Origin: Thermomicrobium sp. 4228-Ro | Lineage (GTDB): Bacteria > Chloroflexota > Chloroflexia > Thermomicrobiales > Thermomicrobiaceae | Length of the DNA stretch: 64,000 bases | Assembly: GCF_026241205.1 (NCBI RefSeq) | Contig: NZ_JAPFQM010000001.1 | Coordinates: forward strand, 1 to 64,000 | Reading direction: 5' to 3' | Part shown: positions 53,831-64,000 of the stretch, one piece after another | Position numbering within the stretch: position 1 is the first letter of the stretch | Layout of the letters: the number at the start of each line of letters is the position of its first letter | The notes under the pieces: model-generated | The model's input: only the letters and a program-made list of their open reading frames with translations | Database searches by the model: none | Told to the model about the DNA's origin: nothing | Translations under genes and position numbers: made by a program

Positions 53831-55507
53831 TCAGGAAAGCGCCTGCGAGGACTCGCGGACTCGTCTCAGGATCACCGAAGCCTCGTCGCTTCGTGCCAAG
53901 CGAGGGCGGTGGTAGTCCTGGATGATCACTGGCACGAGGTGGTAGCGACGGAGTTCGGCTCCGGAAAACCAGAGATGAAGGATCAAGCCTTGCTTCGTTT
54001 CGAACGACCACTCCTGGTCGAAAACGAAGTTTCCGAGCGAGTAGAAGATCGGTCTCCCACGGTACCACTCGATTCCCTGGACCCAGTGCGGATGCGAACC
54101 GACGACGAGCGTCGCTCCGCTATCGATCGCGAGATGCGCGATCCGCCGTTGGGTTTCGGTCGGGATGAGCGTGTATTCGACTCCCCAATGAAAGTACGGT
54201 ATTACGATGTCCGCGCAATCGGCTGCTCGACGGATGGCAGTCGCAACGATCTCGGGTTCGAGTGGAGCCGTGCCAGCAGTCGTTTCCGTCGCTCCAGACC
54301 ACTGTGCGGAAATACCGTCGAAACCGAGCAAAGCGATGGTGACGTTCCCGACGCGGAGTACCGCTGGCTCACTCGCCTGTCGCAGATCGTCCCCCGCTCC
54401 GAACCAGCTGATGCCGGCTCGGTCGAGGGCGGCCTGCGTGTCACGCAGTGCGTCCGCACCGAAGTCCATGCTGTGGTTGTTGGCGAGACTGACCGCATCG
54501 ATACCAGCGAGCGTCAAGCCGTCGACTGCTCGCGGGAAGGTGAGAAAGCGCATCGTGTATGGATCGTCGGGTGGAGGGAAGCGGTCGCTCAGAGCGCACT
54601 CGAGGTTTCCGATCGTCAGGTCGCTCCGAGCGAGCTCGTCGGCAACGTCGCGAAAGGGAGCCTGCCAATCGTCGAGACGCTCCATGATGCGATGGACGGT
54701 GCGACCGAGAATCATGTCACCGACGACCGTCACAGTCAGGAAACGCGGCCGATCGATCGTAACGGGAAGCTGAGCTTCGTCGGGCAGCAGCTGCACTGGT
54801 CCCTCGACGACGAGCCACTCGGTCAGTACCTCCGGAATGGCTGCACCGTGCGCCTGACGGAGCGGGTCGCGACTATCGAGCGTGAGTACCGAGAGTCGAG
54901 GGTGGATCGCGGTCGGCTCGACGAAGGCCAGCACGCCTGGTTGTGCCAGAGTCAACAGTTCTGGAACTCGCGCAACGACGGCGAGCGGATTGGAGAACAC
55001 GAATCCCTCGTCTCGAACCGAAACACGTGCGATCGGGAGCGATTCGACACTGCCAAGAGCTTGCCAGTCGTCAATCGTTCCATCCAGAATGGCTGGAAGC
55101 GCCGCGACCGGTAGATCCTGCACCAGATTGTCGTGCGAGGTCACCGGGACGAACCAACGACCACCGATCGGCAAGCCGGTCGGCGAACCCTGGATCGTAC
55201 GAAGGCGGAAAGTTCCGTTGTCGTCGTTCAGCTGGAGACGCCAATGCGGCGGGATAGAGCTGGTGAGCTGGTGGAGCCATCGCTGTGCCTGGTGTCGTAA
55301 GGTTGGCGGGAGTGGTGGTACCGCAATGTCGATGACGGGACGGGCCGGCAGTGTTCGTGGCGAACTCGATGTAGAGCGAAGCATTCGGTGCCGAACCGCG
55401 TCGGCAGTGGTGGCTTGCGGTGCTGGCAACCCTTCGGTAGGACTCGACGTTTGCCCGCAGCTTGCCAGCAACACTGATAAACTAGCGAGGAACTGTCGTC
55501 GGGTCAC
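53831..55507 (-). CDS. CapA-family metallophosphatase-like lipoprotein with N-terminal solute-binding-like domain
   Basis: 558 aa from GTG 55507. N-terminal RRQFLASLSVLLASCG is a lipoprotein signal with the lipobox Cys near residue 16. Residues 60-260 resemble a degenerate phosphate/molybdate-type binding protein (FVPVTSHDNLVQDLPVAALPAILDGTIDDWQALG). Residues 285-545 are the CapA/PgsA domain: VVGDMILGRTV, GNLECALSDR, SLANNHSMDFG, GFDGISAQ, and HFHWG-like YFHWGVEY with SGATLVVGSHPHWVQGIEWYRGRPIFYSLGNFVF. CapA proteins are linked to poly-gamma-glutamate or capsule export. No other pgs gene nearby. Confidence 0.82.
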   Translation of the reverse strand: MTRRQFLASLSVLLASCGQTSSPTEGLPAPQATTADAVRHRMLRSTSSSPRTLPARPVIDIAVPPLPPTLRHQAQRWLHQLTSSIPPHWRLQLNDDNGTFRLRTIQGSPTGLPIGGRWFVPVTSHDNLVQDLPVAALPAILDGTIDDWQALGSVESLPIARVSVRDEGFVFSNPLAVVARVPELLTLAQPGVLAFVEPTAIHPRLSVLTLDSRDPLRQAHGAAIPEVLTEWLVVEGPVQLLPDEAQLPVTIDRPRFLTVTVVGDMILGRTVHRIMERLDDWQAPFRDVADELARSDLTIGNLECALSDRFPPPDDPYTMRFLTFPRAVDGLTLAGIDAVSLANNHSMDFGADALRDTQAALDRAGISWFGAGDDLRQASEPAVLRVGNVTIALLGFDGISAQWSGATETTAGTAPLEPEIVATAIRRAADCADIVIPYFHWGVEYTLIPTETQRRIAHLAIDSGATLVVGSHPHWVQGIEWYRGRPIFYSLGNFVFDQEWSFETKQGLILHLWFSGAELRRYHLVPVIIQDYHRPRLARSDEASVILRRVRESSQALS

Positions 55508-55637
55508 CCCTGCGTCGCTCCCGAACGTGTTCGCTCTCAGCTGGTGATGCTCGAGAAACGATAGCGTCCCCGTATAGCAATGGCAAGGTGCCCACAAACG
55601 CGTTCCGGAATCTCAGAAACCATGATAGGGGAAACAA

Positions 55638-55662
55638 CGGGGAGACAGCAACTGTCTCCCCG
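55638..55662 (-). terminator. Terminator after the extradiol dioxygenase gene
   Basis: 10-bp stem CGGGGAGACA/TGTCTCCCCG (55638-55647, 55653-55662) with 5-nt loop. On the minus strand it is followed by TTGTTT. It closes the four-gene minus-strand aromatic unit. Confidence 0.7.
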
Positions 55663-55690: not shown

Positions 55691-56671
55691 CTAGCGGGCG
55701 ACCGCGACCGGTGGCGTGCCGTGTGTGTGGAAGGTAGCCACAGTCGGAAGGCCCCAGGCCTGACCGCGCTTCCGCTCTTCCTCTGTCCAGACGATCGGCT
55801 TCCAGTCTGGGGCGACGACGAGGCGCGCGCCCGGGCAGCCGATCTCGACACGGTGACCGCCCGGCTCGATCACGTAGAGGAATACGGTCTGCTGCACCGC
55901 ATGCTTGTGCGGGCCGTATTCGATCTTGTAACCGAACTCGATCGCGATATCGGCAGCGCGAAGCACCTCCTCGCGGGTGTCGACCGCGTAGCAGACATGG
56001 TGGAAACGGCCGCGGGCGCCCGTGCCGTCCTCGGTGACCGCGATCTCGTACCCCTTATTGTTCGACGTCACCCAGGCTCCCTTCTCGGATCCGTCATCGA
56101 AGATGATGCACTCCGTCAGTTTGAGCCCGAGGTACTTCTGGAGGAAGATCCGCGTCGAACGGACATCGGCAGCGAAGACGTTGATGTGATCGAGTCGCCG
56201 CACATTGCAGCCGCGAGCGGGGAAGCGGGAGGCTTGATTCTTGAGAGCTGGCTTCGTTTCCGGTGTCGGCTGGTACCATTCGATCTCCCAGATGAGCTCA
56301 CCGATATGGCCGTCCGGAGTTCGGAACCGATACGCTGGACCGTGACCGGCATCGCCGTCGATCCAGCCCAAGCCGAGGCCCGACTGCTCGAGGAGTGCGA
56401 CACGGCGCTGGAGTGCCTCGGGCGTGCTGACCCGGTAGGCGAAGTGTTCCATCGCGGGAACCGGACCGACTGTAAGCTTGAGGGTGTGGTGCGCGTAGTC
56501 GTCCCACCCGCGTAGATACACCGAGTTCCCTCGCTGCTCGGTCACGTACATCCCCATGTACTCGACGAAAAACCGAACGCTTTCATCGAGTACCGGAGTC
56601 GTGAGTTCGAGATGGGCAAGGTGGGCCATATCGAAGCTCGGTTCACCGATATAGAGGGTCACATCGTTCAT
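55691..56671 (-). CDS. Type I (VOC) extradiol ring-cleavage dioxygenase, catechol 2,3-dioxygenase-like
   Basis: 326 aa. Two vicinal-oxygen-chelate domains. The N-terminal half (MAHLAHLELTTPVLDESVRFFVEYMGMYV, GNSVYLRGWDDYAHHTLKL) and the C-terminal half (RRLDHINVFAADV, GRFHHVCYAVD, GGHRVEIGCPG) match catechol 2,3-dioxygenases. Iron ligands would be H162, H225 and E276, with spacing like that of XylE. It cleaves a catecholic ring beside one hydroxyl. The actual substrate (catechol, protocatechuate, gallate type) is not readable. Last gene of the unit with RraA, GalB-like and amidohydrolase genes. Confidence 0.85.
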   Translation of the reverse strand: MNDVTLYIGEPSFDMAHLAHLELTTPVLDESVRFFVEYMGMYVTEQRGNSVYLRGWDDYAHHTLKLTVGPVPAMEHFAYRVSTPEALQRRVALLEQSGLGLGWIDGDAGHGPAYRFRTPDGHIGELIWEIEWYQPTPETKPALKNQASRFPARGCNVRRLDHINVFAADVRSTRIFLQKYLGLKLTECIIFDDGSEKGAWVTSNNKGYEIAVTEDGTGARGRFHHVCYAVDTREEVLRAADIAIEFGYKIEYGPHKHAVQQTVFLYVIEPGGHRVEIGCPGARLVVAPDWKPIVWTEEERKRGQAWGLPTVATFHTHGTPPVAVAR

Positions 56672-56720
56672 CGCGAACCTCCCCTGCGTTGATGACCGAT
56701 CACCGACTGATCCCCCAACC

Positions 56721-57386
56721 TCACCGTTGTCCCTCGACGACCTGGCGCAGGCCGTGGATATCGAAGCTCAGTTCCCCAAACTTCAGTCGCTCACGCATCC
56801 GCGCTTCGCGCTCGGCACGGGCGCGGGCTGCTTCGAGGACCGCTTCAGCTCGGTTCCGTGCAACCACGACAGCCCCGTCGTCGTCGAGGACGACGATGTC
56901 ACCCGGGGCCACGCGTGCACCGCCCACTGTCACCGGAACCTCGAGTTGACCGATTTTGTCTTTCGTCGCTCCACGCACCCGAATGAATCGCGTCCACACC
57001 GGCAGATCCATCGCCCGCAGTTCGTCGACATCGCGGACCGCTGCGTCGACGAGGAGCGCCGCTGCACCACGAACCTTGGCCTGGATCGCGAGGAGTTCGC
57101 CAACCAGGGCGACGGGCTCCGGCTCCGGCATCGTGAGGACCAGAACAGCACCAGGATAGACGCGTTCCATCACTGCATGCACCATGAGGTTGTCACCCTG
57201 CCCGCAGAGGACTGTCAATGCTGGGCCTGCGACACGACGGTCCGGAAGCAAGGGGATGAGCGGAATATCGATCAAGCCCTCACGGCCCGATGCTTCGTAG
57301 ACAGTCGCCACCCCCAGCTCTGCGAATGCGCGGGAAAGTTCGAGAGCGGTCGCATCGGGGACGGTAGCCTGGCGCACTTCGGTCAT
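56721..57386 (-). CDS. RraA/GalC-like 4-carboxy-4-hydroxy-2-oxoadipate aldolase
   Basis: 221 aa. RraA-fold protein with GELLAIQAKVRGAAALLVDAAVRD, containing the G96...R118-D119 pyruvate/metal site of CHA aldolases, and an N-terminal ATVYEASGREG segment. In the gallate and protocatechuate 4,5-cleavage pathways this enzyme splits CHA to pyruvate and oxaloacetate. Length and neighbours (GalB-like and dioxygenase) favour aldolase over the RNase E inhibitor RraA. 20 bp after the GalB-like gene. Confidence 0.82.
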   Translation of the reverse strand: MTEVRQATVPDATALELSRAFAELGVATVYEASGREGLIDIPLIPLLPDRRVAGPALTVLCGQGDNLMVHAVMERVYPGAVLVLTMPEPEPVALVGELLAIQAKVRGAAALLVDAAVRDVDELRAMDLPVWTRFIRVRGATKDKIGQLEVPVTVGGARVAPGDIVVLDDDGAVVVARNRAEAVLEAARARAEREARMRERLKFGELSFDIHGLRQVVEGQR

Positions 57387-57406
57387 CGGTGTGTCCTCCT
57401 CTCCGA

Positions 57407-58138
57407 TTAGCCGTGGCCGGGGAGTACGCGAGCCACGAGCGGTGTGACACGCTGGAACGCTTCAGCGTAGCGGATGTCCTTGATGCCGGATATACGGCGG
57501 GCGTGATTGGCGCGACGCTCGCCGAGTTCGGCGTAATACCGTTGCAAGTACTGCTGAGAAGCCATGACCTGCATGGCAGCGAGCTTCTTCTCCCATACCG
57601 GCGTGATGTCGACGAACATGTTGGGGACAAAGCCGCATAGTTCCGGCTGGTGCGGTTCGAAGTAGTACAGAGGTGGTGGCTCGACAGTCTCGAAGGCGCT
57701 GGCAACGCCGGCGCCGGAAGAGAGCAGGCGAGCCTGCTGCACCGCCTGATTGGCCACCGGATGATCTGGATTGAAGGGATCGACCGGTGTGTGCGTGATG
57801 ATCGCTTCAGGACGGAATTCGCGGATCAACTGCGCGAGGCGCTCCGTCGCTTCCCTGTCGACCTGGAGAGGGTAATCGCCGAGGTCGTAACACAGGAAGC
57901 GTGCCCCGATCGCTGCAGCGGCGCGCTCAGCCTGTTCGCGCCGGATCGCCTTCACCCGTTCGACGGTTTGACCCGGTTCCTTCCATAGTTCTCCGGATTC
58001 TCCGCGTTCACCGTAGGAGAGTGCGAGGACGATCGCTTCCCCGCCGTTCGCGGTGACCGACGCGATCACACCGGCTGCGCGCCAGACGAAGTCCGCAGCG
58101 TGTGCGCCGACGACCAAGAGGCGCTGTACTCCTTTCAT
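57407..58138 (-). CDS. PIG-L-family protein, GalB-like 4-oxalomesaconate hydratase
   Basis: 243 aa. The zinc site is H13, D16 (GAHAADFVWRAAG) and H126 (DPFNPDHPVAN). The AHAAD form, instead of the AHPDD of deacetylases, and the following LSYGERGES...LWK are what I recall for the GalB-type hydratase of gallate catabolism. Other supporting segments are FEPHQPELCGF and YYAELGERRANHAR. It would hydrate 4-oxalomesaconate to CHA, the substrate of the next gene's aldolase. ATG at 58138 overlaps the amidohydrolase stop by 4 bp. Confidence 0.75.
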   Translation of the reverse strand: MKGVQRLLVVGAHAADFVWRAAGVIASVTANGGEAIVLALSYGERGESGELWKEPGQTVERVKAIRREQAERAAAAIGARFLCYDLGDYPLQVDREATERLAQLIREFRPEAIITHTPVDPFNPDHPVANQAVQQARLLSSGAGVASAFETVEPPPLYYFEPHQPELCGFVPNMFVDITPVWEKKLAAMQVMASQQYLQRYYAELGERRANHARRISGIKDIRYAEAFQRVTPLVARVLPGHG

Positions 58139-59061
58139 TCGTCCCTCCCCGTCGCGAGTCGCACCGTATTCCGCACTGCCATCGTCCGGATGTCGTCCTC
58201 GCTGAAGCCCGCCTGGAGGAGACGATCGGCGAAGAGTGCGAGACCATCTTCGACCGGTGGGTTATCCGGTTGGCCGAGATCGGTACTGAGTACGACACGG
58301 TCCGGTCCGACCGCACGGATGTGCGCGAATGCTGTCTCCCAGGCGACCTTGCCGCTGTACAGCGGCGTGAAACAGTGCTCCATGTAGGCGCCCAACTCGG
58401 CCAGCGCGAGCTGATCCTCGACTGAAAGCGCTTGCGAGGGGAAATCGGGGTGCGTCACGACGATGTGGCGGACACCTTCCTCCCGTGCCGCCTTCACGAC
58501 CGCGACGATTTCGTCCCGGCCGAGATGACCCGTCGCGAGCACGAGGCCGTGCCGGGCGATGATGCGGAGAACGGCACGAAGTTCGGGCACCACCTGTCCG
58601 TCTGGTCCGAGAACCTCGACCGGTGGTACAGCAAAACCTGCCTCGCGCATTTCGCGTTGCAGACGTGCCCAATACGGGAGTTTCGTACCGGGTGCCGCGT
58701 GCTCCAAATGCCGCCGCTCGTTCGCAGCGTCGACAGTCGGTAACCAGACGATCCTCGCTCCTTCGCGCGCGGCGATTTCGACCGCGAGCGGGTTCAACCC
58801 GCCGACAGCCCGGTTGAGCGTGATCGACCCGAGGACCTGGACTCCGGGAACGGCTGCGCGAGCCACCGCAGCTCGCTCGGCGGTCGGTACGTAATGCGAC
58901 TTGATGACATAGCCTGCCAAACCCACCTCGAGAAAGCGACGGGCGAGGTCGATATCGTCGATCCGCCGCGGCATGACATCGGGACCCGAGTGGACGTGGA
59001 GATCGTATGCTCCTCGGACGAGTTCGCGTGCCCGCTCCGATGGGGTCGGGTGCATGGTCAT
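58135..59061 (-). CDS. Amidohydrolase-superfamily protein
   Basis: 308 aa. Metal-site residues of a TIM-barrel amidohydrolase are visible: D20-L-H22-V-H24, K54/H56, H179 (LATGHLGRDE), H204 (VVTHPDFPSQ) and D261 (STDLGQPDN). In aromatic pathways, superfamily members act as pyrone/lactone hydrolases (LigI), OMA hydratase (LigJ) or decarboxylases (LigW). This one is not close enough to name. First gene of the four-gene unit, preceded by an extended -10 promoter; AAGGGTGAAGA is the ribosome binding site. Confidence 0.72.
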   Translation of the reverse strand: MTMHPTPSERARELVRGAYDLHVHSGPDVMPRRIDDIDLARRFLEVGLAGYVIKSHYVPTAERAAVARAAVPGVQVLGSITLNRAVGGLNPLAVEIAAREGARIVWLPTVDAANERRHLEHAAPGTKLPYWARLQREMREAGFAVPPVEVLGPDGQVVPELRAVLRIIARHGLVLATGHLGRDEIVAVVKAAREEGVRHIVVTHPDFPSQALSVEDQLALAELGAYMEHCFTPLYSGKVAWETAFAHIRAVGPDRVVLSTDLGQPDNPPVEDGLALFADRLLQAGFSEDDIRTMAVRNTVRLATGRDE

Positions 59062-59154
59062 TCTTCACCCTTTCGCTTCAGACTGTTCGCTACGAGACAC
59101 GACCCTCCGGCAGGGTAGTGGCACTGCTGGTCGACCGGAGTCTTTTCGTCCTGC

Positions 59155-59163
59155 ATTGTAGCA
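59155..59163 (-). promoter_or_regulatory. Extended -10 promoter for the amidohydrolase unit
   Basis: Minus strand TGC-TACAAT (59163-59155), about 95 bp before ATG 59061. No good -35, as expected for an extended -10 promoter. Lies between the SBP terminator and the first gene. Confidence 0.45.
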
Positions 59164-59201
59164 CACGGTATGCCAAGTTTTACTCCTGAAACAAGAAGCC
59201 T

Positions 59202-59225
59202 CGGGCCGGTACCGCGACCGGCCCG
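59202..59225 (-). terminator. Terminator after the substrate-binding-protein gene
   Basis: 9-bp stem CGGGCCGGT/ACCGGCCCG (59202-59210, 59217-59225) with 6-nt loop, followed on the minus strand by AGGCTTCTTGTTT. It sits 21 bp after the SBP stop codon. Confidence 0.7.
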
Positions 59226-59245
59226 GGCTCGCTGTCGGACGCCGG

Positions 59246-60403
59246 TTACAGTTGTTTGGCCGCGTTCTCGACGAAGCTGAAGTCAACCAATTGTTCGACA
59301 GGTACGGTGCGCTGGATCTTCCCGCGCTGTTGCCACAGTTGCTGGGCCTCGGTGATCTTCGCGACGTCGAACATGCCGTTTTCGGAAACCCCCGGCCAGG
59401 TCATCTGCTCGTACAACGCATCGTCCTTGAGCGGTGTCCGGTTCTTGAGGATCTGTACAACCTCCGCACGGGTTTCGGGATCCTCCAGCGCCTTTAGGTA
59501 GTACCGAGCACCCTTGAGATACCCAACCAGGAACGCTTCGAGCAACGGGCGATCCTGTACCATCGGCGGTCCGGCCACGATAACGGAAATCGGAAAGTTG
59601 TCGCCGATGATGTCGATCAGCTCGTCGCCAGCGACGATTGGTACACCGGCGCCCAGCTGTTTCGTCGCAATTGTCGCATAGGGCTCTACCAACTCCGCAG
59701 CGTCGACAGCGCCGTTCTGAAGCGCCGCTGGCATATCGGGGAGTCGAATAAGCTGCATCTTGATGTCTTCCAGGGTCAGTCCGCCGGACTCGAGCACGAG
59801 CTTGAGTTCGAGCAGATCGATCCCCGCGTCACTCGGCATGGCGAGCGCGCGACCGCGCAAGTCCGCGACGGTTCGGACTCCCTGGTCGTACAGCTCCTTG
59901 CGGACCGCATAGGCGTGGTAGACGTTGCCGCGCTCGAGAGCTCCTTCGCCCGCGACGATCGTGACATCAACTCCTTGTAGCTTCGCGTTGACGAGCGCTG
60001 CGACGATGGCTCCGCTGAAGAGGTGCAAGTCACCCACAGCCAGGAGGGGGATCACTTCTCCTGGCGTGCCTTGCGTGGTGACCAATTCGACGTCGAGGCC
60101 GGCTTCGCGGAAGAATCCCTTCTCTACTGCGATGTAGTTGCCAGCCTCCTCCGTCGCGAGCGCGACGCGCATCTTGAGCTTCCGCGTCTGCACTACAGTG
60201 GGGGCCGCAGTCGGCGTTGCGGCAGCTCCAGTCGTTGGCGTAGGGGCGGCAGCTGTTGGACTTGCAGCCGGTGCTGCGGCGGTCGGCGTTGCCGGTGCCG
60301 GCGTTGGCGTCGGCTCGGCACCGCCGCAGGCGGTCAACAACGCACTGGCGGCCGCTCCAGTAGTGATGAGGAACAAACGACGACGAGTCATAGACGTGCG
60401 CAC
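59246..60403 (-). CDS. ABC transporter substrate-binding lipoprotein (NMT1/SsuA-like)
   Basis: 385 aa from GTG 60403 (AGGAGGG upstream). Lipoprotein signal TRRRLFLITTGAAASALLTAC with lipobox Cys26, then a Thr/Pro/Ala-rich linker (29-69). The binding domain is of the nitrate/sulfonate/HMP type: LATEEAGNYIAVEKGFFREAGLDVELV, VGDLHLFSGAIVAALVNAKLQGVDV, VADLRGRALAMPSDAGIDLLELKLVLESGGL and GAVDAAELVEPYATIA. No permease or ATPase gene is in the window. Position between the demethylase and ring-cleavage genes suggests an aromatic-acid or related ligand. Confidence 0.85.
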   Translation of the reverse strand: MRTSMTRRRLFLITTGAAASALLTACGGAEPTPTPAPATPTAAAPAASPTAAAPTPTTGAAATPTAAPTVVQTRKLKMRVALATEEAGNYIAVEKGFFREAGLDVELVTTQGTPGEVIPLLAVGDLHLFSGAIVAALVNAKLQGVDVTIVAGEGALERGNVYHAYAVRKELYDQGVRTVADLRGRALAMPSDAGIDLLELKLVLESGGLTLEDIKMQLIRLPDMPAALQNGAVDAAELVEPYATIATKQLGAGVPIVAGDELIDIIGDNFPISVIVAGPPMVQDRPLLEAFLVGYLKGARYYLKALEDPETRAEVVQILKNRTPLKDDALYEQMTWPGVSENGMFDVAKITEAQQLWQQRGKIQRTVPVEQLVDFSFVENAAKQL

Positions 60404-60792
60404 CGTATGCCCTCCTCACGTGATCTCGAACCATCTCCTCGCTTCTCGTGGTCCTGAACTCTCGGTGTTCTCGCTACAGAGACCGGTGATCCCGAGAGGA
60501 ACATCTCCATTTGGTCACAACAACCGCGTGTGTTCTCTTGCTGGGTAATAAAGTGCTAAGTCACCATGCAAGAGCTATCGGAGTATACAATAGAAAACAC
60601 GTACCTGTGTTAGGTGTTCGGATATTCTGAACACAAAAGCAGCCCATCTCTGCCTTCATACTAGTGATCCAATGAAGCTGTGTCAAGATGCTGTCATGCT
60701 ACGGACCTGTAGCGAGGGCATGAAGCGGCCGTGCCACGACGCGCTCGCTGACGTCGGTACACCGTGACGTAGCTGCGCGGCCGGATGATGGA
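60404..60792 (-). promoter_or_regulatory. Promoter, palindrome and long leader upstream of the substrate-binding gene
   Basis: AT-richer non-coding stretch. On the minus strand TTGACA (60686-60681), 17-bp spacer, TAGTAT (60663-60658) is a near-consensus promoter with start near 60651. GTGTTCGG-ATATT-CTGAACAC (60614-60634) is a near-perfect palindrome (7 of 8 pairs) at about +17 to +37, a repressor-type position. A second short repeat AACAC-N6-GTGTT lies at 60596-60611. The remaining leader to GTG 60403 is about 250 nt. I see no gene in it. Confidence 0.7.
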
Positions 60793-60833
60793 ACGACCCC
60801 GCTGCCCCTCGGAGGACGGGGCAGCGGGGTCGT
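60793..60833 (-). terminator. Hairpin terminator after ligM
   Basis: 16-bp perfect stem ACGACCCCGCTGCCCC with GGGGCAGCGGGGTCGT (60793-60808, 60818-60833), 9-nt loop, 17 bp after the ligM stop. No T-run on the minus strand, so strength is uncertain, but the stem is the longest in the window. Confidence 0.65.
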
Positions 60834-60850
60834 GGGACGATCAGGGAACA

Positions 60851-62251
60851 TCAGCTCTTCTGTCGCGATCGGCGCACCTGCTCGCGGTAGCGGCGGGCAG
60901 GCTCGGCGTACGGCACGGGGCCGACGGTAACCCACACGTCGGTCTGCACGTGCCGCTCCACCGAGGGCTTGCGTGACCCACCGTTCGGCTCACCCCACAC
61001 GATGCGGAGCCGCGTGCCTTCCTTGGCGTACTCCTGGTCGATCGTCGCGAGGGAAAGGATACGCTCCTCGTTGGAGCTGAAGCCGGTCCACATCGAAAAC
61101 CCGACGACTTCGCCGGCATCGTTGAGGACCGCGTCGTACATCCAGGTGGCGTACTGGGCCAGCGGCAGGTCGAAGTACTTGTAGCGCTGCCCCTTGGGCT
61201 TGGTGACCAGGCTGGAGAGCACCCGCGCTGCCTCGTCCGGATCCCAGACCAGCGTCACCTTCTTGCGGTGCGGCTGGTCCTTCAGCCGCTCCAGCGCAGC
61301 CCGCCCAACGAAGTCGTGGTCGAACTTGATGAGGCGCCCATACCCCAGATCCCACGGCGTGAGGTAGTAGTCCTCGATGTTGGGGCTGACGAAGCTTCCA
61401 CCCAGTGAGCCGACCGCCTCGTAGGCGTTGGCTGGCAGCCACTCGCGGTACCGCTGCAGCTCCGGGCTGGTGTAGATCGCCGGCAGCGGGTTCGGAATCC
61501 AGCCCGACTCGAGCCCGTTCGTCGCGTATGCCCGAGAACCGACCTGACGCAGGCCGAACTCCTTACCGGCCTCGAGGATGGCGGCCTTGACGGCGGGGCC
61601 GTCGGCGAAGTCACCGAAGAACTCGGCGCCGGAGACACCGCTCATGCCGTGGTGGAGGAGTCCGACGGTTTTACCCGCGATCTGGACGCGGGTGAAGTGG
61701 AAGAAGGGGATCTCCGGGGGTGGGCCGCCGAGCAGCTTCTCCAGGACCTTGGGGGCGTTGGGCCCCTGGATCTGGAAGCGGAAGGTCTTGCGTGGCTTGT
61801 GGGGATCGGCGACCGACCACTCGTCGCGCTCGTCGGTGACGTTGGCCCCGCTCGTCTCGGCATGGAACTGTACCCAGTTGTGCGCGCTCGGCCGTCCCAC
61901 AAGCTGGAAGGTACCGTCTTCAAGATAGAAGAGAATCACGTCGCCGATGATGTACCCCTCTGGCGAGACCGGGATGTACTGCTTGGCCTGGCCGGGCTCG
62001 AATCCCTCGAAGGAGTTGATGCCGAGCTGGCGCAGGAGGGCGAAGGCGTCGGGGCCGCGGAGGAAGAGGTCGGTCATGTGGTAGGAGAGGTCGAAGAGGC
62101 AGACGGTCTCGCGCCAGGCGTGCTGCTCGTCGCGCCAGTTGGTGAACTCGGGGGGCACGACCGGATAGACCCGTGCACCCGTCTGGTTGTTGTACAGGTA
62201 CTCCTGAATGTTTGGTGCCTGATCGAACACCTCTTGGAGATTCCTGGCCAT
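60851..62251 (-). CDS. ligM: LigM-like THF-dependent aromatic O-demethylase (GcvT fold)
   Basis: Transfers the O-methyl group of methoxylated aromatic acids (vanillate, 3-O-methylgallate) to tetrahydrofolate. 466 aa, close to LigM (about 470) and much longer than glycine-cleavage T protein (about 365). VYPVVPPEFTNWRDEQHAWR, INSFEGFEPGQAKQYIPVSPEGYIIGD, SAHNWVQFHAETSG, GSRAYATNGLESGWIPNPLPAIYT, SNIEDYY-type SPNIEDYYLTPWDLGYG, and VWGEPNGGSRKPSVERHVQ match what I recall of Sphingobium LigM. It lies 57 bp downstream of fhs; the pairing with formyl-THF synthetase is also known in SYK-6. Confidence 0.85.
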   Translation of the reverse strand: MARNLQEVFDQAPNIQEYLYNNQTGARVYPVVPPEFTNWRDEQHAWRETVCLFDLSYHMTDLFLRGPDAFALLRQLGINSFEGFEPGQAKQYIPVSPEGYIIGDVILFYLEDGTFQLVGRPSAHNWVQFHAETSGANVTDERDEWSVADPHKPRKTFRFQIQGPNAPKVLEKLLGGPPPEIPFFHFTRVQIAGKTVGLLHHGMSGVSGAEFFGDFADGPAVKAAILEAGKEFGLRQVGSRAYATNGLESGWIPNPLPAIYTSPELQRYREWLPANAYEAVGSLGGSFVSPNIEDYYLTPWDLGYGRLIKFDHDFVGRAALERLKDQPHRKKVTLVWDPDEAARVLSSLVTKPKGQRYKYFDLPLAQYATWMYDAVLNDAGEVVGFSMWTGFSSNEERILSLATIDQEYAKEGTRLRIVWGEPNGGSRKPSVERHVQTDVWVTVGPVPYAEPARRYREQVRRSRQKS

Positions 62252-62308
62252 CCCTCATTCCTCCATTCAGGCAAACCACTGACCGCGTCGCAGCCTGTCA
62301 CGACCCAC

Positions 62309-63964
62309 TCATGAGACACCGAGGATGTTGCCGTGCTCGTCGATATCGATCTGCGCTGCCCGCGGCTTGCGTCCCAGCCCCGGCATCGTCTGGATGTCGT
62401 TGAGGAGCACGACGACATACCCCGCTCCTGCGAAGAGCCGAAGCTCTCGCACCTCGACGGTGAAACCTTCCGGGCGTCCGAGCAGATTAGGATCGGCACT
62501 GAGCGATATCGGTGTCTTCGCCATGCAGACTGGCAACTTGTCGTAGCCATGGCGGGCCAGTTCCTCGAGTTGCCGGCGCGCAGCTGCGCTGAAGTGCACC
62601 CCAGCTGCACCGTAGATCGTTCGGGCGATCGCTTCGACCTTCTGCTCGAGGGGCCAGTCGAGCTCATAGACCGGCTTGAATGCTGGTTCACTGGCAGCTG
62701 CTCGCAGCACGGCCTGGGCTAGATCGATCCCGCCTTCACCGCCACGGCTGTAGACCTCGACGACAGCCGCGTCGCTCGCGCCCGCATCGATCGCAGCCTT
62801 ACCGACCAGCTCGAGTTCACGAGAAGTGTCGCTGGGGAACCGATTGATCGCGACGACTGCCGGGACACCGAAGGTCTTCAGGTTCTCGATGTGCTTGATG
62901 AGGTTGGGTAAACCAGCTTCGAGCGCCGCAAGATCTTCGCCTCCCTGCTCGACCTCGCGGACACTCTTGCCACCCTGTACCTTGAGCGCACGTACCGAGG
63001 CGACGAGCACCGCGGCATGCGGGGCGAGGCCGCTCGAGCGACACTTGAGGTGGAAGAACTTCTCTGCACCGAGATCAGTACCGAAACCGGCCTCGGTAAT
63101 CACGACGTCGCCGAGTCGGGTGGCCAGCATGTCGGCGACGACCGACGAGGTTCCCGTTGCGATATTCCCGAAGGGGCCCGCGTGGACGAGGGCAGCGGTT
63201 CCCTCGCTCGTTTGCACGAGGTTCGGCTTGAGTGCGTCGACCAAGAGTGCTGCCATAGCTCCAGCTGCTCCTAAGTCATCCGCGGTTACCGGTTTCCCGT
63301 CCCAGGTGAAGCCGACGACGATCCGCCCGAGACGCTGGCGGAGATCGCGGTAGTCGCGAGCCAGCGCCAGGATGGCCATGACCTCCGAGGCTGGTGTGAT
63401 ATCGAACCGTGTCAAGCGGACGGTACGGGCCGACTCCCCCAGACCCAGGACGAGCTGGCGCAGCGCCCGGTCATTCAGATCGATCACGCGGGGCCACGTG
63501 ACCGTACGGGGATCGAGTGTGGTCGTTCCCTGGTAGAGTGCGTTGTCGAGGACGGCAGCGAGAAGGTTGTGTGCGACCGTGACGGCATGGTTGTCGCCGG
63601 TGAAGTGGAGCGCGAGATCGGGGAAGGGGTGCAGCTGCGCCGCACCGCCACCGGCGCCCGCACCTTTAGTCCCGAAGACGGGTCCCATCGACGACTGCCG
63701 TACCGTGATGATCGAGCGGAGGCCGAGACGTCCGAATGCCTGGCCGAGCCCAACCGAGACGGTCGTCTTGCCCTCGCCGAAGGGGGTCGGCGTGATACCC
63801 GTAACCAGAACGTACCGAGCGCGGGGAGGCCCGAGACGCTCGATGGCCTCGAGACGGACCTTTGCTTTGTAGGGGCCGTAGAGTTCGAGTTCCTCGGGGT
63901 GCAGGCCGAGTTCACTCGCGATGTCACTGACCGGTCGCAGCTTAGCGAGCTGCGTTCCGCCCAT
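62309..63964 (-). CDS. fhs: Formate-tetrahydrofolate ligase (LigH-like)
   Basis: ATP-dependent synthesis of 10-formyl-THF from formate, or the reverse under catabolism. 551 aa from ATG 63964 (GGAAAGGAG upstream; 63985 is an alternative). ATP site TPTPFGEGKTT at 58-68, QSSMGPVFGTKGAGAGGGAAQ, FTGDNHAVTVAHN, TEAGFGTDLGAEKFF and NRFPSDTSRELELV are standard. Directly ahead of ligM on the same strand; in methoxyaromatic catabolism it would process C1 units released by demethylation. Confidence 0.95.
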   Translation of the reverse strand: MGGTQLAKLRPVSDIASELGLHPEELELYGPYKAKVRLEAIERLGPPRARYVLVTGITPTPFGEGKTTVSVGLGQAFGRLGLRSIITVRQSSMGPVFGTKGAGAGGGAAQLHPFPDLALHFTGDNHAVTVAHNLLAAVLDNALYQGTTTLDPRTVTWPRVIDLNDRALRQLVLGLGESARTVRLTRFDITPASEVMAILALARDYRDLRQRLGRIVVGFTWDGKPVTADDLGAAGAMAALLVDALKPNLVQTSEGTAALVHAGPFGNIATGTSSVVADMLATRLGDVVITEAGFGTDLGAEKFFHLKCRSSGLAPHAAVLVASVRALKVQGGKSVREVEQGGEDLAALEAGLPNLIKHIENLKTFGVPAVVAINRFPSDTSRELELVGKAAIDAGASDAAVVEVYSRGGEGGIDLAQAVLRAAASEPAFKPVYELDWPLEQKVEAIARTIYGAAGVHFSAAARRQLEELARHGYDKLPVCMAKTPISLSADPNLLGRPEGFTVEVRELRLFAGAGYVVVLLNDIQTMPGLGRKPRAAQIDIDEHGNILGVS

Positions 63965-64000
63965 CAATCGGCTCCTTTCCCTCACTCAGCAACCGAGCCG

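Follow-up and report, generated by a model that had tools for sequence, protein, structure and literature searches.

We report that the minus-strand genes closing a 64,000-nucleotide stretch of the Thermomicrobium sp. 4228-Ro genome (the window, part of contig C1 in a 3.07 Mb, 99.9% complete genome) probably constitute a catabolic set for methoxylated aromatic acids, in which demethylation to gallate would be followed by ring cleavage with a type I extradiol dioxygenase and by the oxalomesaconate (OMA) route to pyruvate and oxaloacetate. Syringate and 3-O-methylgallate are the most likely of the predicted substrates, and vanillate is a possible one. The ring-opening step thus assigned appears to be carried out by an enzyme family previously unlinked to the gallate pathway. 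Gene content, gene families, conserved linkage and a Tyr-for-His change in the dioxygenase are established by sequence comparison, and the core of an earlier sequence-only reading of this DNA (i.e., O-demethylation, one-carbon disposal, ring cleavage and a gallate-type lower pathway in a thermophilic member of the Chloroflexota) holds as a prediction.

Under the proposed model, enzymes of the LigM/DesA family would transfer methyl groups to tetrahydrofolate, and MetF, FolD and Fhs would oxidise and release the one-carbon unit. Gallate would then be opened by the type I dioxygenase to OMA tautomers, and a DUF6282 protein would bring this product to the tautomer that GalB can hydrate, in place of the PrpF-type tautomerase GalD/LigU. 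Finally, GalB would form 4-carboxy-4-hydroxy-2-oxoadipate (CHA), which LigK/GalC would split into pyruvate and oxaloacetate. What the substrate is, each individual reaction and the parts played by the dioxygenase and DUF6282 are inferences.

The proposed ring-opening dioxygenase and its relatives

The extradiol dioxygenase named in the sequence-only reading is indeed present, with its iron ligands aligned, but it is a type I enzyme and not of the type II kind usual in this pathway. Specifically, it has the VOC/glyoxalase fold (PF00903) of the catechol 2,3-dioxygenase superfamily, and a profile search found no match to the type II LigB family (PF02900) in it. Residues H162, H225 and E276 align to the iron ligands of homoprotocatechuate 2,3-dioxygenase (HPCD), whereas HPCD His200 is matched by Tyr208; this His belongs to the second-sphere residues to which the choice of extradiol over intradiol cleavage is ascribed (PMC6308299). 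In a tree built without the His200/Tyr208 column, the enzyme falls in a clade of 29 rows (support 96/88), 28 of which carry the Tyr; the iron ligands are kept across this clade except in one row, and the single row without Tyr has a changed iron-ligand position as well. The latter sequence, from an Acidobacteriota genome (L214:9293), has His for Tyr; it might be a duplicate that has lost its function, or its alignment may be at fault. Gallate has three adjacent hydroxyls, and a cut between two of them would give the same product in extradiol and in intradiol geometry, so that the enzyme may be able to do without the usual His. The predicted structure of the dioxygenase was poor (pLDDT 62.7) and was not used.

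The genomic neighbourhood of the Tyr clade gives an indication of its substrate. Clade members occur together with galB and ligK in Thermomicrobium and two sister genera (Chloroflexota), Armatimonadota, Thermus, Rubrobacter, Acidobacteriota and several Alphaproteobacteria. A PrpF-family gene comes next in the cassettes of the Acidobacteriota and Alphaproteobacteria, and two PrpF-family proteins (Acidobacteriota, Agrobacterium) score above the cut-off of 440 in the curated model for OMA tautomerase (534 and 494). On an Agrobacterium pAt plasmid (walnut), the operon encodes, in order, GalB, the type I dioxygenase, CHA aldolase, OMA tautomerase and a tannase, and the 21 kb of the plasmid shown hold no LigB/GalA gene. 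Tannase releases gallate, and the conversion of gallate to OMA needs no dehydrogenase. We therefore read the substrate of the clade dioxygenase as gallate, based on its tannase, galB, ligK and OMA-tautomerase neighbours. Further, GalB, DUF6282 and the dioxygenase of the Tyr clade are all missing from one Thermomicrobium genome (G004, 99% complete), in which several stops break the closest demethylase gene; such co-loss fits a single functional unit.

According to the parts of the literature consulted, gallate and 3-O-methylgallate are opened in published routes by LigAB, GalA, DesB, DesZ and MgaAB enzymes (PMC6888825, PMC12314914). The open-access literature searched (titles, abstract openings and passages) named no type I gallate dioxygenase, and held nothing on Thermomicrobia with an O-demethylase or on Agrobacterium with tannase plus ring cleavage. 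The only LigB-family protein of the genome (C1:1223454) was discarded as a candidate for ring opening: it matches the family weakly (65 bits), is kept in most related genomes and lies far from the cluster. No intradiol (PF00775) gene was found in the genome. We give about even chances to the broader proposal that the Tyr-for-His200 clade represents a gallate and/or 3-O-methylgallate dioxygenase of wide occurrence, with an origin independent of LigAB/GalA/DesB/DesZ, and that in the cassette form of Thermomicrobium, Thermus, Armatimonadota and Actinomycetota DUF6282 acts as a new OMA tautomerase, unrelated to the known one, or as a 2-pyrone-4,6-dicarboxylate (PDC) hydrolase.

DUF6282, the predicted tautomerase step and the lower pathway

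The protein previously called an amidohydrolase belongs to DUF6282, and structure prediction (pLDDT 86.7) gives it an amidohydrolase-type barrel, in keeping with the earlier name. Its HxH, K, H, H, D set (H22, H24, K54, H56, H179, H204 and D261) is invariant. Comparison of its sequence with the PDB, as a single query and as a profile, gave nothing meaningful, and nothing on the family was found in the open-access literature. A gene for a PrpF-family (PF04303) OMA tautomerase is missing from this genome and from 20 related genomes. DUF6282 fills the tautomerase slot in the cassettes of Thermomicrobium, Armatimonadota, Thermus, Rubrobacter and Solirubrobacteraceae, and no compared cassette holds both DUF6282 and PrpF. 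This pattern is suggestive, and DUF6282 is a probable replacement for the OMA tautomerase; we propose tautomerase as the first choice for its role and PDC hydrolase as the second.

The other two steps of the lower pathway are represented by proteins that each match solved enzymes of their step, bearing out the GalB-like hydratase and GalC/RraA-like aldolase of the sequence-only reading. GalB matches the PDB structure of OMA hydratase (5cgz), has a signature (AHxADFVWRA) in common with Pseudomonas putida GalB (GAHAADFVWRA in the window vs. SAHSADFVWRA), and carries the AH-x-AD motif in place of the AHPDD motif of deacetylases. A deacetylase function for this PIG-L protein was rejected (bacillithiol deacetylase model, 67 vs. 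a cut-off of 182). The aldolase passes the CHA aldolase model NF006731 (207 vs. 179) and scores below the stricter TIGR02798 (190 vs. 304).

Alternative routes and known systems

Several observations weigh against gallate as the substrate or against a single role for the clade. The PDB relative 9wgj, a member of the Tyr clade on which nothing was found in the open-access literature, bears the label 'catechol 1,2-dioxygenase'. The galB-linked dioxygenase of Solirubrobacteraceae (L115) has His and falls outside the clade, and several clade members are without galB within 8 kb. In Roseomonas and Chelativorans J32, the clusters hold a LigB-type dioxygenase beside the clade member, which may have another role there. 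In Thermus oshimai, the dioxygenase-DUF6282-GalB-LigK set is accompanied by 4-hydroxybenzoate 3-monooxygenase, an aldehyde dehydrogenase and a DUF1932 oxidoreductase, neighbours that would suit protocatechuate as well. Because of these LigB-type neighbours, the Thermus neighbours and the His-type enzyme of Solirubrobacteraceae, the substrate could vary across the clade. Finally, the exchange of DUF6282 and PrpF takes only two changes on the dioxygenase tree, and their mutual exclusion consequently rests on few independent events.

Alternatively, vanillate might be demethylated to protocatechuate, with type I 4,5-cleavage, a dehydrogenase encoded elsewhere that leads to PDC, and DUF6282 as the PDC hydrolase (a LigI analogue). 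The Thermus oshimai neighbours fit such a route, and LigI-type PDC hydrolases (2ffi, 4d8l) are found in the fold search with DUF6282. We nonetheless regard it as doubtful: the window cluster has no dehydrogenase, DUF1932 is absent from this and the other Thermomicrobium genomes, the Agrobacterium tannase operon indicates gallate, and the LigI match is one among many amidohydrolase matches with a modest TM-score. DUF1932 NAD-binding proteins recur near dioxygenase/galB/ligK clusters outside Thermomicrobium (L185, L187, L188, L189, L217, L218, L219, L221) and are possible dehydrogenases of the pathway.

It is also conceivable, but unlikely, that 3-O-methylgallate itself is cleaved without a second demethylation, giving CHMOD/PDC and methanol, with DUF6282 hydrolysing PDC or a methyl ester to OMA. 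Known syringate branches, as described in the passages of PMC12314914, do cleave 3-O-methylgallate directly, and the fold of DUF6282 is of a hydrolase type, with its metal ligands complete; however, the PrpF-type cassettes have no hydrolase in the DUF6282 slot, and Agrobacterium pAt needs only tannase-derived gallate. Ordinary catechol meta-cleavage with incidental neighbours is very improbable, even though TIGR03211 would call the window dioxygenase a catechol 2,3-dioxygenase at a score just short of its cut-off (309 vs. 320, with 322 for a close relative, which passes) and further catechol-2,3-dioxygenase relatives are encoded in the genome, since the cluster has no semialdehyde dehydrogenase or 2-hydroxymuconate enzymes, GalB and LigK act on a tricarboxylic intermediate, the linkage is conserved across phyla, and the ordinary paralogs, those of this genome included, keep His and are located elsewhere, one of them beside HpaB.

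The gallate route that we favor can be compared with its closest described systems. It resembles that of Sphingobium sp. SYK-6 (DesA, LigM-MetF-LigH, DesB/LigAB/DesZ, LigI, LigU, LigJ, LigK) in that O-demethylation depends on tetrahydrofolate, metF and fhs adjoin the demethylase gene, and LigK closes an OMA/CHA lower pathway, but differs in having a type I for a type II dioxygenase, GalB (PIG-L fold) for LigJ, DUF6282 with no LigU/PrpF, a demethylase of a third clade, and one compact locus. The P. putida gallate pathway (GalA-GalD) shares GalB and GalC and, in related cassettes, a GalD-type OMA tautomerase, whereas here the type II GalA is replaced by a type I enzyme and GalD by DUF6282, and O-demethylase and one-carbon genes are attached. 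Pseudomonas sp. NGC7 (VanAB, MgaABCD, GalBCD), as far as the passages of PMC12314914 describe it, likewise takes a syringate-type substrate into GalB/GalC, but with a vanillate-type oxygenase demethylase and the LigAB-like MgaAB, neither of which is found in the window cluster. The type I enzymes HPCD (1f1x/1q0c), catechol 2,3-dioxygenase 3lm4 and 9wgj share the fold and the 2-His-1-carboxylate iron site; the position of His200 is Tyr here, clade-wide and in 9wgj also, and the genomic context here is the OMA pathway.

If our interpretation is true, a gallate-opening enzyme has gone unrecognised in genomes of several phyla, where it is now annotated as 'catechol 2,3-dioxygenase', and lignin- and tannin-degrading capacity has been missed or misnamed. 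It would also provide a first function for part of the DUF6282 family, enzymes for converting lignin that are probably stable to heat, and a natural case of a second-sphere residue steering ring cleavage. Several of the cassette carriers are cultured organisms or plasmids.

Predicted O-demethylation, gene layout and neighbouring loci

The assignment of the O-demethylase as LigM-like stands, with one correction. The protein narrowly passes the NCBIfam LigM model (588.6 vs. a cut-off of 580), matches the PDB LigM structure 5tl4 (526 bits) and keeps the methyl-transfer Tyr, but it lies outside both the SYK-6 LigM group and the Sphingobium DesA group, in a third, fully supported, largely thermophile clade on the DesA side of the tree. 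It is below the cut-off of the DesA model (640 vs. 800), with three sphingomonad relatives at 827-902. A GcvT-like or dimethylglycine-type identity was rejected on model scores (at most 82 vs. 300 for GcvT models) and on the tree, in which the protein is very far from GcvT; that is, the clustering with glycine-cleavage enzymes that would have contradicted the LigM assignment was not found. The equivalents of LigM Y247 (Y242 in the window), H60 and E215 are invariant in 105 of 105 aligned relatives. LigM R122, which we take to be the contact to the substrate carboxylate, corresponds to R120 in the window enzyme and to V, N or A in three paralogs from the same genome. The third clade resembles the 'DesA-like' aminomethyltransferase group described for lignin-assimilating thermophiles in passages of PMC9296663, a likeness drawn without comparing exact sequences; the DesA-side branch, the methyl-transfer Tyr and the thermophilic hosts are common to both, but those passages describe no linked ring-cleavage set of this kind.

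Among the one-carbon proteins, Fhs scores 754 bits with PF01268 and passes NF010030 (719 vs. a cut-off of 652), and the genes sought in the rest of the genome are there: the metF-type gene is next to fhs and FolD is encoded elsewhere in the genome. The functions of metF, fhs and ligM are thus adjacent, as in the trio of SYK-6, where they form a ligM-metF-ligH operon (PMC6888825). In an Armatimonadota cassette (L049:8331-9899), ligM has as its neighbour a fusion of MTHFR with DUF5981 (methylene-tetrahydrofolate reductase C-terminal), an alternative metF form.

All seven genes of the sequence-only reading lie on the minus strand (55691-63985) and were confirmed by family models or structure-database matches (Table 1). 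Their order, 5' to 3', is fhs, O-demethylase, lipoprotein, DUF6282, galB, ligK/galC and extradiol dioxygenase, and it is identical in other Thermomicrobium genomes; hence, the arrangement is not due to chance. The metF-type gene is 21 bp upstream of fhs, and fhs is separated from the O-demethylase gene by 57 bp; DUF6282 and galB overlap by 4 bp, followed by gaps of 20 bp (galB-ligK) and 49 bp (ligK-dioxygenase). With 447 bp between ligM and the binding-protein gene and 184 bp between the latter and DUF6282, the gap lengths suggest two gene runs, metF-fhs-ligM and DUF6282-galB-ligK-dioxygenase, with the lipoprotein gene between them.

Table 1. Features of the cluster and its flanks in the window
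Feature	Position	Strand	Evidence or remark
metF-type gene (MTHFR, PF02219), 3' end	63986..64000	-	whole gene C1:63986-64864, 292 aa, mostly outside the window
Formate-tetrahydrofolate ligase (Fhs/LigH type)	62309..63964	-	ATG start 63964; alternative GTG 63985
LigM/DesA-family aryl O-demethylase, 466 aa	60851..62251	-	family models, PDB LigM match
Promoter-like site TTGACA-17-TAGTAT	60658..60686	-	pattern match; in the 447-bp gap ahead of the binding-protein gene
NMT1/SsuA-type substrate-binding lipoprotein	59246..60403	-	PF09084/PF13379
DUF6282 protein (PF19799), predicted amidohydrolase-type TIM barrel	58135..59061	-	237 bits; predicted structure
GalB-type hydratase, PIG-L fold	57407..58138	-	PDB 5cgz match, 213 bits
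CHA aldolase, LigK/GalC	56721..57386	-	NF006731
Type I (VOC) extradiol dioxygenase, proposed gallate dioxygenase	55691..56671	-	PF00903, TIGR03211
Strong terminator-like hairpin, 11-bp stem	55638..55662	-	pattern match; directly 3' of the dioxygenase gene

The suggestion of uptake is weakly supported: the binding lipoprotein, whose N terminus is twin-arginine-like (MTRRRLFLI...LTAC), is present, but no permease or ATPase gene adjoins it at this locus, whereas its relatives in a sister genus do have them alongside.

Two congeners of this genome share long identical stretches with Thermomicrobium sp. CFH 73360 and HRbin28, from which the genus is read as Thermomicrobium. The genome encodes six LigM/DesA-family proteins, of which the other five have 95, 70, 59, 51 and 45% identity with the window copy. 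The 95% identical copy stands alone at C1:571294-572682, between uvrC and an HD-domain gene/dnaG, and the congener G005 has an fhs-ligM pair ahead of genes matching in size those at this site, suggesting movement or duplication of the LigM copy between the two places. A second demethylation-linked cluster (C11:1-15882) combines curated HpaD, HpaE and HpaG with a liv-type ABC transporter, another galB gene and two LigM-family genes that lack an equivalent of R122, and is probably a separate homovanillate/homoprotocatechuate route with its own demethylase. On contig C6 (290000-309900), a LigM-family gene is beside a tannase/feruloyl-esterase family protein (PF07519), together with a thiamine-diphosphate enzyme and a branched-chain-type binding protein; this set is present in Thermomicrobium sp. 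CFH 73360 too. Finally, with respect to the immediate flanks of the cluster, a PGA_cap-domain protein (window 53831-55597, same strand) lies just past the terminator and is kept beside the cassette in the congener G001, and directly upstream of the metF-fhs-ligM run (contig C1, ~65.5-74.2 kb) there is a phage-type integrase with a series of short open reading frames on the same strand after it, possibly an integrated element.

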